From: Chrysochromulina tobinii
Lineage: Eukaryota > Haptophyta > Prymnesiales > Chrysochromulinaceae
Length of the DNA stretch: 20,959 nucleotides
Direction of reading: 5' to 3'
NCBI GenBank assembly: GCA_001275005.1
Contig: JWZX01002428.1
Location: 1-20,959 of the forward strand
Below, one piece after another: positions 302 through 20,347 of the stretch (position 1 is the first letter of the stretch; each line of letters starts with the position of its first letter). A model generated the notes under the pieces. That model did no database searches, was not told the DNA's origin, and worked only from the letters and a program-made list of their open reading frames with translations. Both the position numbers and the translations under genes were made by a program.

Positions 302-755
302 GCAGTTGCTCCGTTCCAGCTGCGAAAAACTGACTTGAGCAGCTGCGAAAAACATCACAGAAAATCTTCACAGCTCGACTCAACTTACCAAGAGCTGTGA
401 CAATTCGACTCACAGCTCATCAAATCTTAAGTAAGTTGCAACATAAGATTTCGCAGCTCCTAAACTTAGAGGAGCTGTGAGTCGAATTTTCACAGCTGTG
501 ACGAACATTTCGAGCAGCTGTGAGATAAGGCCCATTTTTCCCCACAGCTGCTCAAAGTTGAAGAGCTGTGAGTTGCATTCTCACAGCTCCTCGCAACAGT
601 TGTAGCAGCTGTGAGATTAAAACTCGCAGCTCCTCAAGTTGTCGAGCTGCGAGTTTTTACAGTCACAGGTGCTACAAGTTGCGAGGAGGTGTGAGAATGA
701 AACTCACAGCTGCTCGAACTTGAGGAGCTGTGAGAAAACATTTCACAGCTCCTCA
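302..755. repeat. Array of alternating inverted repeats with AGCT core
   Basis: A run of half-sites of the form CTCACAGCTNCTC alternates with its reverse complement, separated by 5-15 nt loops and A/T-rich spacers. Examples: 368-376 pairs with 392-400; 402-418 pairs perfectly over 17 bp with 472-488 and encloses a second dyad (422-429 with 444-451); 512-522 with 543-553; 563-572 with 580-589; 623-632 with 644-653; 703-715 with 722-734; 722-732 with 744-754. Because orientations alternate, many half-sites can pair with either neighbour. The array ends about 40 bp before the gene 1 start, so it lies in its promoter or 5' leader. CAGCTG is also an E-box core, but no factor can be assigned. Confidence 0.85.
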
Positions 756-796
756 TCTGTTGGAAAACACCGTTAACCAAACTCGACGCACAAAAC

Positions 797-3700
797 ATGA
801 AGCCCACGAGCATGGCCACGGGCTACAACCGAGCCCAATTTCGCACTATCGAGGAGGATTACAAGTGCGAAAACCTCACTCTTGTGTGGGCCAAGCAAAA
901 AGGCGAGTGGTGGCCCGCCCACCTCATCTCGCTAGGCTCGGAGGGAATGCACCTCGTGTCCTTCATTGGATGGGGACGGCGGCATGACGTGGAGGTGCCA
1001 GCGAACGACATACGGCAGGAGGAGCCGCAGCGGCAGCGCTCACGCCCAACACCACTCGACATCTCCGACGGTGGCACGCCAGAGCGTCACAAGCGGGCTA
1101 AGCACGCGCATACTCCGCATCGCACCTCGCGAAGCTCTCCAGGCCCGCCCGAGACGCCGGAAGGGTCGCCTCCGCCTCGCCTGAAGCTCAAAGTCGTCGT
1201 CCCGAGTGACGACTCCTTCGAATGCGCTGCGTGCGGCGGGCGTGGCACCGCATCGCAAATGCTCCGCTGCTCCTTGGGCTCTTGCGACTCGTGGGTACAC
1301 AGGTGCTGCGCAGGACGAGACGACGAGGCGCCGCCGCCGGTGAGCCACCCGCGTCGCTCGTATGCGTGCCCGCTGTGCGTGCCGCCGCCCACGGAGGCTG
1401 AGTCGGCGTCCGAGCCGCCGCCCTTGCCGCCGCCGCCCTCCCCGCCACCACTGCCGTCGACGCCGATGCTGTCGAAGGCTTTGGCGGCTCTCGGCGGCGT
1501 AGCCTCCTCGTCCTCTGCTGTGTCCTCGGCCTCCTCGGCGGCGAGAGCGGCGAGAGCGACCGTGGCGAAGGAGAAGCAGCTATTGGCCGATCTGTGCGCG
1601 GACCGTTTGATGGAGAGCGACGTGAGGAAGCACCTTCGGAGGTTCGGGCTGCCAACGGGCTGGGAAGAGGGCAAGAGGCAGGGGGGCTTGCTAGCCTGCG
1701 ACCTTGCCGCGACGCTGCGCCAGCGCCTCGCAGGGCAGCTGCGATCCCTCATCGCCACAGCCGAGCAGGAGGCGGAGAAGGCGGCAGCGGAGGAGGCGGC
1801 GGAGGAGGAGGCGGCGGAGGTGGCAGTTGCGGCGGGGGCGGCGGCGGCGGCGGCGGTGGAGGCGGCGGCGAGGGCGGTAGAGGAGGCGGCGAGGGAGGCA
1901 GAGGCGACGAGCGTTGTGGTGAGCATTGAGGTGGGATCGGAGGCGCATGAGTCTACGTCAGTGACGATGGAGATCGAGACACCGGTGACACCGGCAGCGG
2001 CCAAGTACCGCTGCGCATCGCCCGACCACCCCGATACCTCGCGGACCGAGATAATGCCCGAGATCGGAGCTCCGGCGACTCCAAACGAGATCATGCCCGA
2101 GATCGGAGCTCCGGCGACTCCAAACGAGATCATGCCCGAGATCGGAGCTCCGGCGACTCCAAACGAGATCATGCCCGAGATCGGAGCTCCGGCGACTCCA
2201 AACAGGACGCCGCAGACGGCGGTAAAGGCGGTAAAGGCGGACGAGGCGGCGGCGGCGTCGGGGGCGTCAAAAGCGCCCGAGGCTTCGTCAAAAGCGCAAG
2301 CGGCTTCGTCAAATGCGCACGCGGCTTCGTCAAATGCGCACGCGGCTTCGTCAAATGCGCACGCGGCTTCGTCAAATGCGCCCGAGGCTTCGTCAAATGC
2401 GCCCGAGGCTAAGTCGACTGCGGCTACGTCGGCGCCGTGTGCAGGGTGCCTCGAGGGTTGCGACGCGTGCGGCATCATGTGCCCGGTGTGCGCCGAGGAG
2501 CTTGAGGCTACAGCGGCGGCGACAGCCCGTTGCCAGCTATGCGGGGTGCGAATGCACGCCCGATGCGCGAGCCTGCGCCTGAGCTCGCAATCTGGCTTGA
2601 GCTCGCAACCTCCGCCGACGCGCCGCCTGAGCTGCGCCGAGTGCGACGCCCTCTCTGATGCCGTCTCGATCGCCTTTGCCCGCGCGTATGGTTGGGCCGC
2701 GCCCGAGATAGCGCGCTCGACCGAGGCGCTCAACACAGCGGCTATGCAGGTGCGACCGGTGGCGAACGCTGCCATCATTGAACTAGCGTGCGCGTGCGCA
2801 CGCCGGTTCCGAACGCGCGCCCTAGCAGGCCAAGGCCCTCGCTGCGCCCTCAACGTGGAGGCGAACGCGTACTTTGCCTCGTGGCGCACGGCCACGCGGC
2901 TGCGCCTTGCGGCGTTTGGGCCGTCGGCGGTGCCGCGGCTCGGACGCGGGCGGGTGGGCGGCGGCGGGTGCGGCGGCGACGGCACTGCCGACGAACACGT
3001 CGGGGGGGCGGCGCTCGGGGCGGCGCTCGGCGGCGGCGGCGGCGGTGCGGCCACAGAAGGTTGGTGCCGCTTCGTCCTCGAGGCGGGGGGAGCGGAACTC
3101 TTCTTCCTTGTGATGGGGCGGCTCGACGATACCCTGGCGCTACGCTCGGCGGCGTGCGTGTGCGCCGAATGGTCGCATCTACTCGACCGCTCACGCTCGT
3201 GTGAGGCGGCGGCGGTGTGGCGACAGGCGGTGCTGACCGCGCCTCGTGGGCGCCTCACACTTGCGGCCGCACTTCGCTCCACACGACCCGGTGATCGTCT
3301 TCGCATCGCGGCCGGGGTGCACTCGGCGCCGCTGCTTGTGCCGCACCCGCTGCACATCAGCGCGGCGCCTGGCGCCATCGTCACCGGACCGATCACCCTC
3401 ACGGATCCGAGATCAGCCGAGATTGGCCGAGATCGACCGAGATCAGCCGAGATTGGCGTCACGGGCAGCGCCGTCCCGAGCGCCGGCCCCGGCCGTCAAG
3501 GTCGCCTGTGTGGCCTTCGCGTCGAGCACTTTTACGAGACGGCCATCACCGTGCTGGGGGGCTGGTGGACTCTCGAGAACTTAGAGATCGTCTCGAGCCA
3601 GGCACCCAAGCGAGCATGCGTGGGCGTGCTGCTGCGAGCGGCGGCGCACGTGGACGTTGTGCACAGCGTCATCACGGGCGCCTCGTCCGTCATCACGCTC

Positions 3701-3994
3701 GGCTCACCGCACGCCTCGCTCGTGGCGCACGACTGCACCTTCGGCAACACGCGGGCCGCGATCGCCTCCGAACGCGGTGGCAAGCTTGACGTGCGCCGCT
3801 GCTCGTTCAGCCTCGAGCTGCCGAGCGATGTGGGCTTTCGGCTCGCCGCCGACACACGCGGCTTTGTGGGCATGGGGCTGCTCGTCTCCCCCACCACCAG
3901 CGGCGGCAGCCTGTGGGGGCGAGTGCTGCCGCCGAAAGCGGTCTGCGTCGAGGCCGAGGAGGCCGACGAGGGCGCGGCCGCGGGCGCGAGCTGA
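797..3994 (+). CDS. PWWP-like/PHD/F-box-like/beta-helix multidomain protein
   Basis: A 1065-aa uninterrupted frame, starting at an ATG with A at -3. Residues about 25-72 form a PWWP/Tudor-like module with the signature VWAKQKGEWWPAHLI. Residues 143-194 are a PHD finger with C4HC3 spacing (C143, C146, C158, C163, H168, C171, C191, C194). An Ala/Glu helix lies near 320-370, followed by two coding tandem repeats. A second Cys-rich PHD-like finger spans about 548-616. Residues about 757-812 resemble an F-box, and about 815-1045 resemble the right-handed beta-helix repeats found in FBXO10/FBXO11-type proteins. Family knowledge suggests a nuclear reader of histone marks (PWWP, PHD) that might act as a ubiquitin-ligase substrate receptor (F-box). 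The role in this organism is inference. The N-terminal modules are the surest; F-box and beta-helix calls are weaker. Confidence 0.75.
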   Translation: MKPTSMATGYNRAQFRTIEEDYKCENLTLVWAKQKGEWWPAHLISLGSEGMHLVSFIGWGRRHDVEVPANDIRQEEPQRQRSRPTPLDISDGGTPERHKRAKHAHTPHRTSRSSPGPPETPEGSPPPRLKLKVVVPSDDSFECAACGGRGTASQMLRCSLGSCDSWVHRCCAGRDDEAPPPVSHPRRSYACPLCVPPPTEAESASEPPPLPPPPSPPPLPSTPMLSKALAALGGVASSSSAVSSASSAARAARATVAKEKQLLADLCADRLMESDVRKHLRRFGLPTGWEEGKRQGGLLACDLAATLRQRLAGQLRSLIATAEQEAEKAAAEEAAEEEAAEVAVAAGAAAAAAVEAAARAVEEAAREAEATSVVVSIEVGSEAHESTSVTMEIETPVTPAAAKYRCASPDHPDTSRTEIMPEIGAPATPNEIMPEIGAPATPNEIMPEIGAPATPNEIMPEIGAPATPNRTPQTAVKAVKADEAAAASGASKAPEASSKAQAASSNAHAASSNAHAASSNAHAASSNAPEASSNAPEAKSTAATSAPCAGCLEGCDACGIMCPVCAEELEATAAATARCQLCGVRMHARCASLRLSSQSGLSSQPPPTRRLSCAECDALSDAVSIAFARAYGWAAPEIARSTEALNTAAMQVRPVANAAIIELACACARRFRTRALAGQGPRCALNVEANAYFASWRTATRLRLAAFGPSAVPRLGRGRVGGGGCGGDGTADEHVGGAALGAALGGGGGGAATEGWCRFVLEAGGAELFFLVMGRLDDTLALRSAACVCAEWSHLLDRSRSCEAAAVWRQAVLTAPRGRLTLAAALRSTRPGDRLRIAAGVHSAPLLVPHPLHISAAPGAIVTGPITLTDPRSAEIGRDRPRSAEIGVTGSAVPSAGPGRQGRLCGLRVEHFYETAITVLGGWWTLENLEIVSSQAPKRACVGVLLRAAAHVDVVHSVITGASSVITLGSPHASLVAHDCTFGNTRAAIASERGGKLDVRRCSFSLELPSDVGFRLAADTRGFVGMGLLVSPTTSGGSLWGRVLPPKAVCVEAEEADEGAAAGAS
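2048..2203 (+). repeat. Four 39-bp coding tandem repeats
   Basis: Inside gene 1, four near-identical 39-bp units encode EIMPEIGAPATPN four times (residues 418-469). The first unit differs by one codon base (ata for atc). The unit length is a multiple of three, so copy-number change would keep the frame. Confidence 0.95.
2282..2407 (+). repeat. Six 21-bp coding tandem repeats
   Basis: Inside gene 1, six 21-bp units begin GCTTCGTCAAA and encode the heptad ASSNAHA or its variants (ASSKAQA, ASSNAPE), with degenerate flanking copies on both sides. It is a flexible, low-complexity linker between the first PHD finger region and the second Cys-rich finger. Confidence 0.92.
3409..3458 (+). repeat. 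Decamer tandem array inside an exon
   Basis: Five head-to-tail 10-bp units of the form GATNNNCCGA lie inside the beta-helix-like part of gene 1 (GATCAGCCGA, GATTGGCCGA, GATCGACCGA, GATCAGCCGA, then a partial unit). They encode RSAEIGRDRPRSAEIG. The stretch has no internal GT-AG pair that would let it be removed as an intron, so it is probably translated as a short insert between beta-helix strands. Confidence 0.85.
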
Positions 3995-7285: not shown

Positions 7286-9649
7286 TCACGCTGAGGAACT
7301 AGTCTCAGCTCCCGCTTTCGTGCTCGAGCTGCCATCCGAGGTGTAGCCGAGGTCTGCGAGCTGCTTCTTCTCATAGGGCTGCATGTACTGGTCCGCCACA
7401 AACTTCTGCATCACTTTGGGCATGCATTTCCAGACCTTCGGCATCCAGAGCGTGATGCGCAGCGAGAAGACCATCATGAAGATCCACGTAGAGAGGCCGG
7501 CGAGGATGCCGATCTCGATTCTGTACGTGACCGGCTGCACCAGGATGGTGAGCATCGCTGGGATCGACTGCATGTAGTCCATCCAGTCAACATCCTTGAC
7601 GCCCTCGATCATGAAGACGCCCACGAGGATGAGCGCCGGGCCAGTCGCGACTGTGGGGATGGACGCGAAAAAGGGGGCGAGGAAGATGGAGAGGAAGTTG
7701 AAGAAGGCGATGGTGAGCGCCGTCAGCCCGGTGCGCCCGCCCTCGTAGACGCCGGTCATCGACTCGCCGTACGTCGTGAGAGACGACGTGCCGAGGAGGC
7801 CACCGACCATCGTGCCGATGCCGTCGGCCATGAAGGCTCCGTAGCAGCCTGGGAAGTTGTCACCCTTCTCGTTCATCAGGCCGCAGAGGTCTGCAGCCGA
7901 GTAGAGGAACGCCATCGTGCCGATAAAGTCAATGTACAGGAGCACGAGGAGCGGCGCGCCAAAGTTGTTGAAGGTGAGATCATTGTAGGCCCACGCCGCG
8001 AAGGTGCCGCCCGGGATGTCGCCGGCCCAGCACTTGGAGCCTGCGTCGCCGCAGCCGAACGCGCCAAACCAGGGCGCCACGGGGCCCTCCTTGGCCATCG
8101 CCCCCTTCGGAGGCGAGAAGAACTCGATGGGAGACGTGAAGGTCTTGGGGATGCGGCCGGCGCCGCCCAAGCAGCCCTCACCGAAGCCGTCGATCTTGGT
8201 GTACGGCGTGAGGGGGGGAGAGCCCCCAAACTCCGGGGACGAGAAGGTCGCGCCCATGGCGTTGGTGATCGTCCTGTCGGGCTCGACGTAGCTCATGCCC
8301 GACCAGCACGTCGTCGAAGTCATGACCACGCCGAAGCAGGCCGGGTTGAAGCCTCCGTGCATGAGATGGCACGTCTCGGTGCAGCCGCCTGCCACGTTCC
8401 CGAGCCCGTTGCGCCCGTCGCCGTTGCCCTTGAAGCTGAGCGAGCCCATGTGCGAGTGGACGGTGCCGTCGGGGGCGGTGATCGTCCAGTTTCCAAAGGA
8501 GTTCATCACAACGGACGAGCCAACCCAGGTCGACGTGTAGTAGTCGTCACCGGTGCCCACGCCGGCGACTCCTTTGATGAGCTTCGTGCCGGACTTGCCC
8601 ACGACGTCGAAGGCGTTCATGCACGTCGGCTTGGGCATCCCTGGCTCGGTTAGGCCGGTGCCGGAGCCGGGCATGGGGTAGAAGTCTTTGTTGAGCGTCT
8701 TGGGGTACTGCACCTCGCCAAGGCAGCACACCTGCTGGTACGTGAAGGAGGGCGTCTCGACCGCAGCGAGGATCCAGCACGTGAATGTCGAGAGGAGGAT
8801 GCCGATCATGATGGCGCCCTTCACCTTGAGCATGACGAGGGTGGACATGACGAGGAAGAAGAAGAGGCCGATCCATGTGACGCCCGCGTGCTCGCCGTTG
8901 AGCGGCGCGAGGTCCACGAGGACCGCCGGGTTATCGCGCGAGAAGATGATGCCATTGCCGGCCTGAAGGCCGATGTGCGCGAGGAAGAGGCCGATGCCAG
9001 CCATCGACGCCTTCATCAACCATTTGGGGAAGATCTTGAAGATCTGGCGGCGCATGTCAGTGAGCGAGATGACGAGGAAGATGAGGCCCTCGATGAACAC
9101 GGCGAACATCACCGGCTTGACGGGTACACTCGTGCCCTTGAAACCGACGACGGTGTACGCAAAGTAGGCGTTCGTGCCCATGCCCGGAAAGACGCCAAAG
9201 GGCAGGTTGGCCCAGAACGCCATGATGAGCGTGGCGATGCACGAGGACATGGCCGTCGCGAACACCAGCCCATCAAAGTTGAGGCCGGTCACGCTGAGGA
9301 TGTTCGGGTTCACCGCCATGATGTAGCAGCTCGTCAAATATGTCGTGATGCCCGCACGGATCTCGGTGGTCAAGTTAGAGCCGCGTTCGGTCACCTTGAA
9401 GTACTTGTCCCAATAGGTGCCCATGAACTTGTTGTCCAGAGGGTTGTTCTTGCGGCCCGCGTGGCCCCTGGCGTCCGCCTTGCCGAAAGAAGCGCCGTCA
9501 GTCACGACCTTGACCGCCGCCGCCATGGCGTCGGGGGTACTCGACCGTGCAGAAAAGGAAGCACTTTTCGAATCGCGAAGAGAAAGCGCCGAGATTCCTT
9601 CTTGGACGGACCGCAAAGTGTACCTGTGTACCTTGACCTCCGCCGCCAT
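7286..9649 (-). CDS. AzgA/AZG-family purine permease with Cys-rich loop
   Basis: A nucleobase transporter of the NCS2-related AzgA/AZG group, which carries adenine, guanine and hypoxanthine with protons across the plasma membrane. From the ATG at 9649 it is 787 aa; from the in-frame ATG at 9526 it is 746 aa. Both have strong context (ACCATGG and GCCATGG). Family motifs are clear: TTEIRAGITTYLTSCYIMAVNP, the GVFPGMGTNAYFAYTVVGF segment, DFIGT, ADGIGTMVGGLLGTSSLTTY followed by GES and EGGRTGLTAL, then IPTVATGPALILVGVFM. AZG proteins I know of are about 430-580 aa. The excess is mostly a loop of about 250 residues between TM helices (roughly residues 298-550 from ATG 9649), with about ten cysteines and a NWT sequon, probably extracellular and disulphide-bonded. 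The gene is divergent from the guanine deaminase fusion, which fits purine uptake feeding salvage. Confidence 0.93.
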   Translation of the reverse strand: MAAEVKVHRYTLRSVQEGISALSLRDSKSASFSARSSTPDAMAAAVKVVTDGASFGKADARGHAGRKNNPLDNKFMGTYWDKYFKVTERGSNLTTEIRAGITTYLTSCYIMAVNPNILSVTGLNFDGLVFATAMSSCIATLIMAFWANLPFGVFPGMGTNAYFAYTVVGFKGTSVPVKPVMFAVFIEGLIFLVISLTDMRRQIFKIFPKWLMKASMAGIGLFLAHIGLQAGNGIIFSRDNPAVLVDLAPLNGEHAGVTWIGLFFFLVMSTLVMLKVKGAIMIGILLSTFTCWILAAVETPSFTYQQVCCLGEVQYPKTLNKDFYPMPGSGTGLTEPGMPKPTCMNAFDVVGKSGTKLIKGVAGVGTGDDYYTSTWVGSSVVMNSFGNWTITAPDGTVHSHMGSLSFKGNGDGRNGLGNVAGGCTETCHLMHGGFNPACFGVVMTSTTCWSGMSYVEPDRTITNAMGATFSSPEFGGSPPLTPYTKIDGFGEGCLGGAGRIPKTFTSPIEFFSPPKGAMAKEGPVAPWFGAFGCGDAGSKCWAGDIPGGTFAAWAYNDLTFNNFGAPLLVLLYIDFIGTMAFLYSAADLCGLMNEKGDNFPGCYGAFMADGIGTMVGGLLGTSSLTTYGESMTGVYEGGRTGLTALTIAFFNFLSIFLAPFFASIPTVATGPALILVGVFMIEGVKDVDWMDYMQSIPAMLTILVQPVTYRIEIGILAGLSTWIFMMVFSLRITLWMPKVWKCMPKVMQKFVADQYMQPYEKKQLADLGYTSDGSSSTKAGAETSSSA

Positions 9650-9750
9650 GGTGAGAATGGCGGGGTACATGTACACTGATGCAGAAAAAGTACGCTACTT
9701 TCGATGTTTTACATAAAGCGCCGAGATCATGCCTTCTCGGACCGTCCGCA
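9508..9750. promoter_or_regulatory. Duplicated bidirectional promoter with start codon
   Basis: Two diverged copies lie in tandem: 9508-9616 and 9631-9750. Shared blocks in the same order are CCTTGACCNCCGCCGCCATGG (9508 and 9631), GGGGTAC, TGCAGAAAA (9548 and 9680), TTTCGA, AAAGCGCCGAGAT (9583 and 9715), CCTTCTNGGA (9597 and 9732) and CCGCAA (9611 and 9746). Each copy begins with a minus-strand permease ATG. Copy 2 ends at the ATG of the deaminase fusion; copy 1 has AAGTG at the matching place. This suggests an ancestral bidirectional promoter of about 110 bp that was tandemly duplicated. Which copy is active for which gene cannot be told from sequence. Confidence 0.8.
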
Positions 9751-12111
9751 ATGGACGTGTCCCAGGGGGTACTCGCGGTCTTCGGCACTTTGGTGGACGC
9801 GCCGAGGCTCGGCGTGGTGCGAGGGCTCGACACGCCCGCGCTGATCGTCATCTCACGCACCAACGGCAAGATCGTCTCGGTGCAGCGCGACGCGGAGGCA
9901 GCCAGCGCTGCGGCCGCGCTCGAAGCTCGTGCGGCTGAGTCTCGGACCGTCGAGTTCGTGCGGCTGGGTCCGCGCGAGTTCCTGCTTCCCGGCTTCGTCG
10001 ACTGCCACGTACACGTGGCGCAGTGGGCCTACATGGGCACCGGCATCGACCGGCCGCTCATGGCCGACGACGGCTTCCTTGCCAAGTACGCGTTCCCGGC
10101 TGAGTCGTCGCTCAATAGTCGCACGGCGCCGTCGGTGTACCGCGCGGCGGTCGACGACATGCTACGGCACGGTACGACGACCGCGCTGGTGTTTGGCTCC
10201 GCCCGCCTCGACGCCTCCGAGGCGTACGTGGCCACCGTGCTCGAGCGCGGCGGCCCGCGCTCGCTCGTCGGCAAGGTGAACATGGACCGCTACTGCCCCG
10301 AGGGGTATGTCGAGGCGACGGCGCAGTCGCTCGCGGACACGGAGGCGTTCATTGTGGGCACCAAGGCGGCAAACGAGGCGCTCGGCCTGCCCGCGGGCTC
10401 GCCACCCCTCGTCGCGCCCGTCGTGACTCCTCGCTTCCTCCCCACATGCACGCCTGAGCTGCTGCACGGGCTCGGCGCTCTCGCGGAGAAGCACGACTGC
10501 TTCATCCAGGTGAGTGCCACTGAGTGCCACTGAGTGCCACTGAGTGCCACTGAGTGCCTCTGAGTGCCACTGAGTGCCACTGAGTGCCACTGAGTGCCAC
10601 TGAGTGCCACTGAGTGCCACTGAGTGCCACCGCTTGCCACCGCTTGCCAATGCTGCTCCAACCAGTCGCACCTCTCGGAGTCCTGCGATGAGCTCGCCTT
10701 CTCGTCTTCGCTCTTCCCGGAGTACCCGACCGATGCTGCCGCGTTCGCCGCGTATGGCCTCCTCCGCTCGCCCTCACTCATGGCACACTGCGTGCACCTG
10801 CAGCCCGGCGAGGCCGAGCTCATGCTCCTCCACGGCTGTGCAATGGCCCACTGCCCCACGTCGAACTTCTTCTTCGCCAAGGAGGCGCTGCCCGTGCGCC
10901 AGCTGCTCCAGCTCGGTGTCAAGGTCGGACTCGGCACCGACGTGGCTGGCGGCTACTCGCCGTCGATGCTCGTCGCCATGCGCCACGCCGTCCTCGCCTC
11001 CAAGACGCTCCAGTTTCGGCGCGCAAAGAACTGCGTCTTCCAGTGCGGGCCGGGTGCAGACGACGGCGCGGCACCGCCAAAGCGCGCCAAGCGGCCCTCC
11101 AACTTCAGCATCGAGTACGACCCGACGGCGGACGCGGACAAGCTGCGCGACCTACACAACCTCACCCACCTCGACGCACTCCACCTCGCCACCATGGCCG
11201 GCGCCGATGCGCTCGGCCTCGGCGCGCACATCGGATCGTTCGACGTAGGCAAGAGCTTCGACGCCATCGTACTGGCCGCCACGCCACCGGCCATCCGCGC
11301 CTTCGAGGGCGGCGTCGCAGAGGATACGAATGACTTGCTGCACAAGCTGCTGACGCTGGGTGACGACCGCCACGTCAAGGCCGTGTTCATCGGCGGCAAG
11401 AAGATCGTCTCAGCATCACCGCCGGCGCCCCCGAGCATTGCACTGGAGGAGGTCGAGAAGGTGATCAAGAAGCTCGTGCGGCCTGTAAAGGGCTTCCCCA
11501 ACCCTGACTTTGTCTTCGGCGACATCACGCCGCTCCTTGCGGATGCCAGGGCCTTCGGCATGGTCATAGATGCCCTTGTGGCGCGCTACAGCCGCGTTGA
11601 CGGGCTGACGGCGATCGCCTCACCGGAAGCGCGCGGCTTCTTCTTTGGACCGGCCGTGGCAAAGGCCCTTGGCGTGGGCTTCTTGCCGATTCGTAAGATG
11701 AACCAGCTGCCGGCCGAAACCCACCGGAGCGAGATGGTCAAGATGGACTATGGCGAACGCTGCATGGAACTGCATGCCGGGCTGCTGCCCTCGGGCGGCA
11801 AGGGCACAGTGGTCATTGTCGACGACATTCTCGCGACGGGTGGCTCCGCCATCGCGTGTGCCGGCATCTTGGAGCAGCTCGGCATGACGGTGCACGAGGT
11901 GGCTGCAGTGTTCGACTACAGCGATGGTGCATCTGTGCTAACGGGCCGCAGCGTGTTGAAGGACAAGGGCTACAGTGTCTTCGCGCTCGCTCGGTTCTGC
12001 GTCGAGGACAAGGGATCCGTGACCGAGACGATGTCCTGGTGGCTCGAGCGCGGTCCCGACAGCGACATTCTCATCTCGCCTCACATGGGAAAGATGAACA
12101 AGCAGCACTGA
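9751..12111 (+). CDS. Guanine deaminase-APRT-like fusion protein
   Basis: Exons 9751-10509 and 10666-12111 give 734 aa. The ATG at 9751 has G at -3 and +4; an in-frame ATG at 9679 has weak context. Residues 1 to about 505 are guanine deaminase (guanine to xanthine plus ammonia): zinc ligands H86 and H88 (GFVDCHVHVAQ), H255 (SHLSES), H294 (MAHCVH) and D344 (GLGTDVAGGYS), with spacing like human GDA. Residues about 511-714 are a type I phosphoribosyltransferase of the APRT kind: FVFGDITPLL, PEARGFFFG, and the PRPP loop VVIVDDILATGGSA at 635-648. APRT makes AMP from adenine and PRPP. In the flexible loop the family EYG reads DYG here, a conservative change at the catalytic acid by my recollected alignment. 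The divergent neighbour is a purine permease. Xanthine as PRT substrate is an alternative. Confidence 0.93.
10510..10665 (+). other. Intron made of a decamer tandem repeat
   Basis: Phase-0 intron of 156 nt, donor CAG|GTGAGT and acceptor AACCAG|TCG. Twelve head-to-tail copies of TGAGTGCCAC (10511-10630, one with CCTC) plus two diverged copies (CGCTTGCCAC, CGCTTGCCAA) fill 140 of its 156 nt. The donor sequence is the first repeat unit preceded by G; all later units are preceded by C, so only the first makes a GT donor. Splicing joins CFIQ to SHLSES, restoring the deaminase zinc motif. Retention gives a stop after eight codons. Confidence 0.92.
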
Positions 12112-19072: not shown

Positions 19073-20107
19073 CTACCTCCCCCCGTCCACACGCTTACAA
19101 GATCGATAGTTGGTGGCCTTGTCAGCGGCCGAGCCTGCCACCGAGCACAACCGCATAAGCTCCTCGGCGAGGCAGCTCATCAGCACGCCGTAGCCACTCG
19201 CCGACGGGTGGAGACCGTCAGGCAACAGCGTGATGTCGACATCGAACCGCGCTGCGGCGGCCATTGACGGCGTCATTCGGAGCACGGTGCCATTCAAGGG
19301 AGGCCGGTCCGTACGCGCTCGAAAAGGCTGGGTGCAGTCGGCGAATCGGACTCGCTGCGAGCCGTACCGTTGTGCGAGCGCAGGCACGGTAAAGTCGTTC
19401 AGCTGCGCATTCACAGCGTCCACGCTGCGCTTCCACGAGCGCGGTATCCTCTTGACTGCGCATACCGATGGGCAGTACTTGCGCGCGGTCGGCGTGCCGC
19501 TGATGGACGGCCGGCCAGTATTCAACGGCACGAGCTCGCCAGGCCGATCGCAGTAGGGCCTCGGGCAAATGTTTAACCTCCAGCGATCGCCTCTGGGCAA
19601 GAGACCCACGATCAACATCCTTGCTCGAGACGTGGAGAGCACATACCGCGCGATCGCCTCGATGCCAGCGACCACTTCGTGGCTGCGATGGCCGCCAGCA
19701 AGGTTGTTCGTGCCGACGAGCAAGACAATCAGGAGATGCGGATCACGGCTCATGCTCTGCGACAGCTCGCCTTGAGCCAGCCGCCACAGAACGTGCTGCG
19801 TCTCGTCGCCGCCGCTACCAAGTAGGAGTGGGTTCGGCCAGCCGACGAGGGTGCTTTGCAGCACGCCTCGAAGGGATGCAACCATGCTATCCCCCACGAA
19901 CGCGAGCCTCGTGACATTATCGTCGTCCTCTGGCGCTGCCGTGTATGCGCTCGCCTCGTCCCTGAGCCTTTCGTGCCATCTGCAAAAGGCGGGACCTAAT
20001 TTGCCGAACTTTGGCGCCGCAACATCGGCCAATTGACCAGTGTCGTCGACGTGCGCATTGAGCGGCCACGTAATATTAGAGGGTGGGGCGTCGCAAGGGA
20101 GCAACAT
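19073..20107 (-). CDS. SGNH/GDSL-type hydrolase
   Basis: 344 aa from the ATG at 20107 (A at -3). An SGNH esterase/lipase-fold enzyme, substrate unknown. The blocks are present: block I FVGDSM with Ser74 as nucleophile, block III VGTNN (Asn about 135) and block V DGLHPSASGY with Asp297 and His300. The middle resembles PAF-acetylhydrolase-like SGNH proteins (LLIVLLVGTNN, MLIVGLLPRG). About eight cysteines and NIT/NGT sequons suggest a secreted or lumenal protein, yet no signal peptide follows this ATG. The frame stays open upstream to about 20336 without an ATG and includes LTVTHEAQAAGSSNSW, so a 5' exon with a signal sequence may be missing. An ester hydrolase of carbohydrate or lipid acyl groups is the broad expectation. 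Confidence 0.85.
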   Translation of the reverse strand: MLLPCDAPPSNITWPLNAHVDDTGQLADVAAPKFGKLGPAFCRWHERLRDEASAYTAAPEDDDNVTRLAFVGDSMVASLRGVLQSTLVGWPNPLLLGSGGDETQHVLWRLAQGELSQSMSRDPHLLIVLLVGTNNLAGGHRSHEVVAGIEAIARYVLSTSRARMLIVGLLPRGDRWRLNICPRPYCDRPGELVPLNTGRPSISGTPTARKYCPSVCAVKRIPRSWKRSVDAVNAQLNDFTVPALAQRYGSQRVRFADCTQPFRARTDRPPLNGTVLRMTPSMAAAARFDVDITLLPDGLHPSASGYGVLMSCLAEELMRLCSVAGSAADKATNYRSCKRVDGGR

Positions 20108-20347
20108 ACTCCATCCCGCTGCCGCAACGATGATGTCACTTGGTCCCGACACCGACGTGCTTGTCAGCCCACACCGCAGCCCCGCCGGGCGCGACCACGA
20201 GTTTGACGAGCCTGCAGCCTGAGCCTCGTGCGTCACTGTGAGGCGAGCTAAATTTGGAACATCCGGGCCCAAAAGGCGGCAAGGCTTTAAGGGAGTCGGA
20301 TTCAAACACACCAACACCCACGATCCACAGCACCCCTAGCCACGAGG

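Follow-up and report, generated by a model that had tools for sequence, protein, structure and literature searches.

The fused frame and its intron

The window analysed here is a stretch of 20,959 nucleotides from the haptophyte Chrysochromulina tobinii (assembly GCA_001275005.1, contig JWZX01002428.1), in which a guanine deaminase (GDA) frame is joined to an adenine phosphoribosyltransferase (APRT)-type domain and lies head to head with a predicted adenine/guanine permease (Table 1). Once positions 10510-10665 are spliced out, translation gives a single frame of 734 codons without stops, from an ATG at 9751 to a TGA ending at 12111, in which a GDA domain with its zinc ligands is followed by a linker of 19 residues and then by the transferase. 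The first-pass annotation had described one frame that, after removal of a phase-0 intron, carries the GDA zinc ligands and a full type I phosphoribosyltransferase with its loop binding phosphoribosyl pyrophosphate (PRPP); frame, Pfam and alignment agree with that description. As judged from the sequences compared, two known enzymes are here fused in a frame that is specific to one lineage and is found in two related sequences.

The GDA half is matched by Pfam Amidohydro_1 at residues 77-368 (E 4e-43; 148.3 bits against a gathering score of 25) and by the human GDA structure 2uz9 (E 8e-71). H86, H88, H255, H294 and D345, as well as R228 and E258, are all present, and 33 aligned relatives carry the identical residue at all seven sites, with the exception of one row that is gapped at H86/H88. 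From the alignment to human GDA, we take the first five of these to be the zinc ligands and E258 to be the catalytic glutamate. The C-terminal half has a type I phosphoribosyltransferase fold with a PRPP loop. It is matched by Pfam Pribosyltran at residues 546-671 (E 4e-8) and by APRT structures (best E 3.7e-31), and it passes the APRT model NF002636 (139.4 against a cut-off of 125) and lies below the cut-off of NF002634 (151.2 against 170).

The intron is 156 bp long (GTGAGT...CCAACCAG) and brings stops into the frame when kept. The relative P0130 runs uninterrupted over the junction of exons 1 and 2 (...CFIQSHLSESCDELAF), and the acceptor ending at 10665 is the sole one that restores IQSHLSE, a stretch unbroken in P0130; two alternative AG sites within 10630-10720 keep the frame open but lose QSHLSE. 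The deposited model P0002 (‘guanine deaminase’, 688 residues) contains both domains and uses a later splice that skips the stretch from S254. It is shorter by 46 residues (734 minus 688), H255 and H294 being among those missing, and its splice was rejected because two zinc ligands are thereby deleted. On sequence grounds the intron at 10510-10665 is the better model. The annotation of the genome is described, in extracts of the genome paper, as resting on MAKER2 with RNA-seq evidence (PMC4580454).

The repeat unit of the intron (10511-10630) also occurs elsewhere in the genome: an exact 26-base match turns up 88 times, over 33 contigs, and a reversed control gives none. Twenty four arrays of the 10-bp repeat were viewed, a few of which (L038, L047, L051) start at a donor-like GGTGAG.

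Table 1. Coordinates of the fusion gene, its parts and the divergent permease gene within the window.
Feature	Position	Strand	Basis
Exon 1, GDA residues 1-253 (H86, H88, R228)	9751..10509	+	Frame, Pfam, alignment
Intron, phase-0 GT-AG, mostly twelve copies of the 10-bp unit TGAGTGCCAC	10510..10665	+	Frame; P0130 continuous there
Start of exon 2, GDA residues 254-501 (H255, E258, H294, D345)	10666..11409	+	Frame, alignment, record ends
Linker, 19 residues (47 in P0003)	11410..11466	+	Alignment with relatives
APRT-type phosphoribosyltransferase, residues 521-734 and stop codon	11467..12111	+	Pfam, NCBIfam, structure matches
PRPP-binding loop VVIVDDILATGGSA	11809..11850	+	Start from alignment, end from 14 codons counted
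AZG1/AZG2-type adenine/guanine permease, alternative start 9526	7286..9649	-	Frame, Pfam, structure matches
Spacer between both start codons, 101 bp (224 bp with permease start 9526)	9650..9750	.	Possibly a shared divergent promoter region (presumed role)

Relatives and the origin of the junction

The same GDA-APRT junction is found in P0003, which begins at exon 2, is identical to the fusion at 240/248 positions of the GDA part and 200/214 of the APRT part, and carries an in-frame linker of 47 residues. P0001, likewise from exon 2 onward, spans the junction with one substitution. Among the other closest relatives, each half has a record of its own. The separate GDAs P0130, P0131 and P0139 (Emiliania huxleyi EMIHUDRAFT_60912) share 72-88% identity over the GDA half and the same ligands and, unlike the fusion, end in GGK/GGR plus three residues without a transferase domain. 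On the transferase side, the APRT record P0010 and the MMETSP/EukProt transcripts P0014 and P0015 share 70-88% identity and the same pocket changes (see below), but are unfused and have an N-terminal leader of their own. Five further proteins (P0004-P0008) carry a C-terminal APRT domain of the same clade as that of the fusion; their N-terminal partner is a histidine phosphatase (PF00300) instead of GDA, and their position in the tree is separate.

The first-pass annotation had proposed a search for proteins with both GDA and Pribosyltran domains, and three were found: among nine proteins of at least 404 residues returned by the APRT part, three carry GDA, five PF00300 and one PF02355/PF07549. 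Equally, PF00156 is carried by three of the best 120 of 437 GDA relatives, no search having been aimed at distant prokaryotic GDA-APRT fusions.

Ten of the 11 nearest separate GDAs (P0130-P0140) stop where the linker of the fusion starts. In nine the C-terminus is GGK/GGR followed by three residues, and in P0140 it is a matching DGKKLV, whilst P0134 is 5 residues longer; most of those examined among the more distant records (P0141-P0163) end elsewhere or run on. Moreover, the alignment of the P0003 linker with the leader of P0010 beats all 1000 shuffles, although both are rich in S, P and T. Since the GDAs end at the start of the linker and the linker resembles the leader of a stand-alone APRT, the fusion looks recent. 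Two once-separate genes were probably merged in frame when the stop of GDA was lost, and what had been the leader of APRT turned into the linker; this rests on protein comparison, and the order of events is presumed. P0130 and P0010 branch just outside the fused pair in the GDA tree (44 rows: window, C645, P0003, P0130-P0163 and seven further listed relatives) and the APRT tree (46 rows: window, P0003, P0004-P0008, P0010-P0041 minus P0040 and eight further, with a long-branch warning), respectively.

The records P0130, P0131, P0132, P0134, P0010, P0012 and P0014 start MGxxxS/T, which we take to resemble a myristoylation signal. An MG start is found in 7/34 GDA and 5/35 APRT records; the fused protein starts MDVSQG.

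The neighbouring permease and other purine genes

The product of the divergent gene is closest to the adenine/guanine permeases AZG1 (8irl, E 9e-81) and AZG2. A diverged tandem duplication of ~115 bp at 9501-9745, covering the 5′ end of the permease gene and intergenic sequence (score 87, against 36 for the best of 300 shuffles), gives rise to two possible permease starts. Elsewhere in the window are a 1086-residue frame with a PHD finger (734-3994, + strand) and another whose match to GDSL lipase lies under the cut-off (19073-20335, - strand).

The 53-Mb assembly, in which the window is contig C1283, was searched for further purine genes; genes that are split by introns or unassembled could escape these searches. 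No second AZG-type permease was detected, nor any other APRT by protein search (E up to 10), TIGR01090 or PF00156. Nine places carry PF00156: the window, two identical HGPRTs (187.4 against a cut-off of 150), an HGPRT-like gene (134.6), an XPRT-type gene above its cut-off (177 against 164.45), PRPP-synthetase-, OPRT- and purF-type matches, and C545, with weak phosphoribosyltransferase matches only (22.2 bits). The identical HGPRT frames, of 260 residues, lie on contigs C3 and C2170 (L009, L010), perhaps through assembly redundancy. The XPRT-type domain (C2095, L012/L019) belongs to a 694-residue frame whose first ~460 residues have no Pfam match at E 0.001. One XDH-family and eight adenosine-deaminase-family matches were also found. 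Viral contigs yielded distant APRTs only (best 42% among 80 loci kept).

Interpretation of the fusion

Because the neighbouring gene is closest to the adenine/guanine permeases, two parallel branches are suggested. We favour, with a probability of roughly 0.6, a bifunctional GDA and APRT-type enzyme that would serve parallel guanine and adenine branches and form an uptake-and-use pair with the AZG-type permease. Adenine and guanine would be imported together; the N-terminal zinc GDA would convert guanine to xanthine and ammonia, draining it to xanthine and nitrogen, and the C-terminal transferase would convert adenine and PRPP to adenosine monophosphate (AMP) and pyrophosphate, trapping adenine as AMP. 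The two reactions would run in parallel, with no intermediate handed between the domains. We infer that the cell makes a single chain with both activities, co-expressed with the permease. GDA and APRT each form dimers, and the fused chain may therefore form a larger assembly.

Several observations weigh against this. The GDA half falls under the NCBIfam guan_deamin equivalog cut-off (340.3 against 375.4 bits), an annotation threshold that was not used as a biochemical definition and that is also missed by the separate GDAs P0130 (349.8) and P0139 (353.7). The transferase half is below the TIGR01090 (apt) cut-off (131.9 against 185.85), and its pocket deviates, with G538 at human position 27 (R/K elsewhere) and D614 at position 104 (E elsewhere). 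A second, separate GDA on contig C645 passes guan_deamin (398.3), so guanine deamination does not depend on the fusion, and no uricase match was found in the assembly. Finally, the separateness of the relatives' halves is read from record ends, some on short contigs (P0010 1426 and P0130 1780 bases), and the neighbourhood of permease and fusion is known from one genome only.

The fusion had earlier been proposed to couple nitrogen release from guanine with base-to-nucleotide salvage and to keep stoichiometry fixed. A full-length GDA-APRT frame does lie here, but coupling as worded finds no support: xanthine, the product of GDA, is not a usual APRT substrate, and the genome has HGPRT and a separate XPRT-type gene. 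The domains would be made in equal amounts, as in any fusion; the total in the cell is not set by it, because of the second GDA gene. A doubtful extension is that guanine deamination is controlled by the binding of PRPP or AMP to the transferase, so that nitrogen is released only when the purine nucleotide pool allows.

The strongest alternative, though a distinctly less probable one, is that the fusion is neutral: both enzymes would be active with no advantage of one chain, the loss of a stop between neighbouring genes having become fixed by drift, the genome being compact. The fused pair is indeed a small tip clade amid separate relatives, its linker lengths are unequal (19 and 47 residues) and no intermediate is common to both reactions. 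However, the frame has been kept open over a diverged linker in two sequences, and the enzyme pair matches the substrates named for the relatives of the neighbouring permease.

A shift of the transferase half to 6-oxopurines, whereby a single chain would take guanine through xanthine to xanthosine monophosphate, appears very unlikely. It would accord with the changes of R/K27 to G and E104 to D, both at conserved APRT positions; human Arg27 and Glu104 are counted among the residues binding AMP or adenine in PMC8915579 and PMC7414151. Moreover, human APRT crystals with hypoxanthine and inosine monophosphate (6hgq, 6hgr) indicate that the pocket can hold an oxopurine. The pocket was surveyed in the best 120 of 2595 matches (P0009 excluded), the algal clade being P0010-P0044, the window and P0003, grouped by similarity with transcriptome tags on few. 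In its 37 rows, position 27 is G in 34, A in one, L in one and a gap in one, position 104 is D in 36 and E in one, and the residue at the position of human Leu159 varies, with 18 Y, 14 L, 2 F and 3 gaps. All five phosphatase-APRT fusions have A at 27 and D at 104; the other 85 rows (P0045-P0129) have R/K (82) or Q (3) at 27 and E at 104 throughout. The changes thus predate the fusion, because they span a related clade that is mostly unfused. Furthermore, profiles and fold are closer to APRT than to XPRT, and the separate XPRT-type gene passes its own cut-off. With both conserved positions changed, this half is called APRT-type, a divergent subgroup, rather than a proven APRT; from its sequence, use of adenine is likely, not certain.

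Least probable of all is that the halves are expressed separately or that the junction is an artefact of assembly or annotation: guanine-plus-cytosine content at third positions, 0.76-0.98 across all 14 blocks of 50 codons (residues 1-700, linker included), drops slightly from the GDA blocks (0.82-0.98) to those of APRT (0.76-0.82), but the linker is an open frame, P0003 and the near-identical P0001 cross the junction, and an assembly join was rejected because P0003 shares the junction with a longer linker.

In the titles and abstract openings of the papers listed, no description of a GDA-APRT enzyme was found, in keeping with the earlier remark that no well-described enzyme of this architecture was known to its author, nor of a phosphatase-APRT fusion, nor any study of haptophyte GDA beyond a single line of a transcriptome paper. 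The word ‘guanine’ is absent from the main text of the C. tobin genome paper (PMC4580454). The HGPRT/adenylate kinase of Zobellia galactanivorans, as given in extracts of PMC7326950, is likewise a one-chain bifunctional purine-salvage transferase and is reported to be active, but it is bacterial and joins HGPRT to a kinase. OPRT/OMPDC fusions (PMC9512073, PMC7052976) also combine a phosphoribosyltransferase with another nucleotide enzyme, repeatedly in eukaryotes; these catalyse consecutive pathway steps, whereas the GDA and APRT steps have no common intermediate.

Guanine has been reported to be the commonest crystalline inclusion among >200 unicellular eukaryotes surveyed (Pilatova et al., quoted in extracts of PMC11819609), and such inclusions are often interpreted there as a nitrogen store; the alga of that study formed crystals upon phosphorus, not nitrogen, depletion. 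If the favoured reading is true, a gene adjoining an adenine/guanine importer would unite guanine breakdown with adenine salvage, and the balance between them would be directly testable. The fusion, which looks recent, also has sister forms that are unfused and remain traceable.
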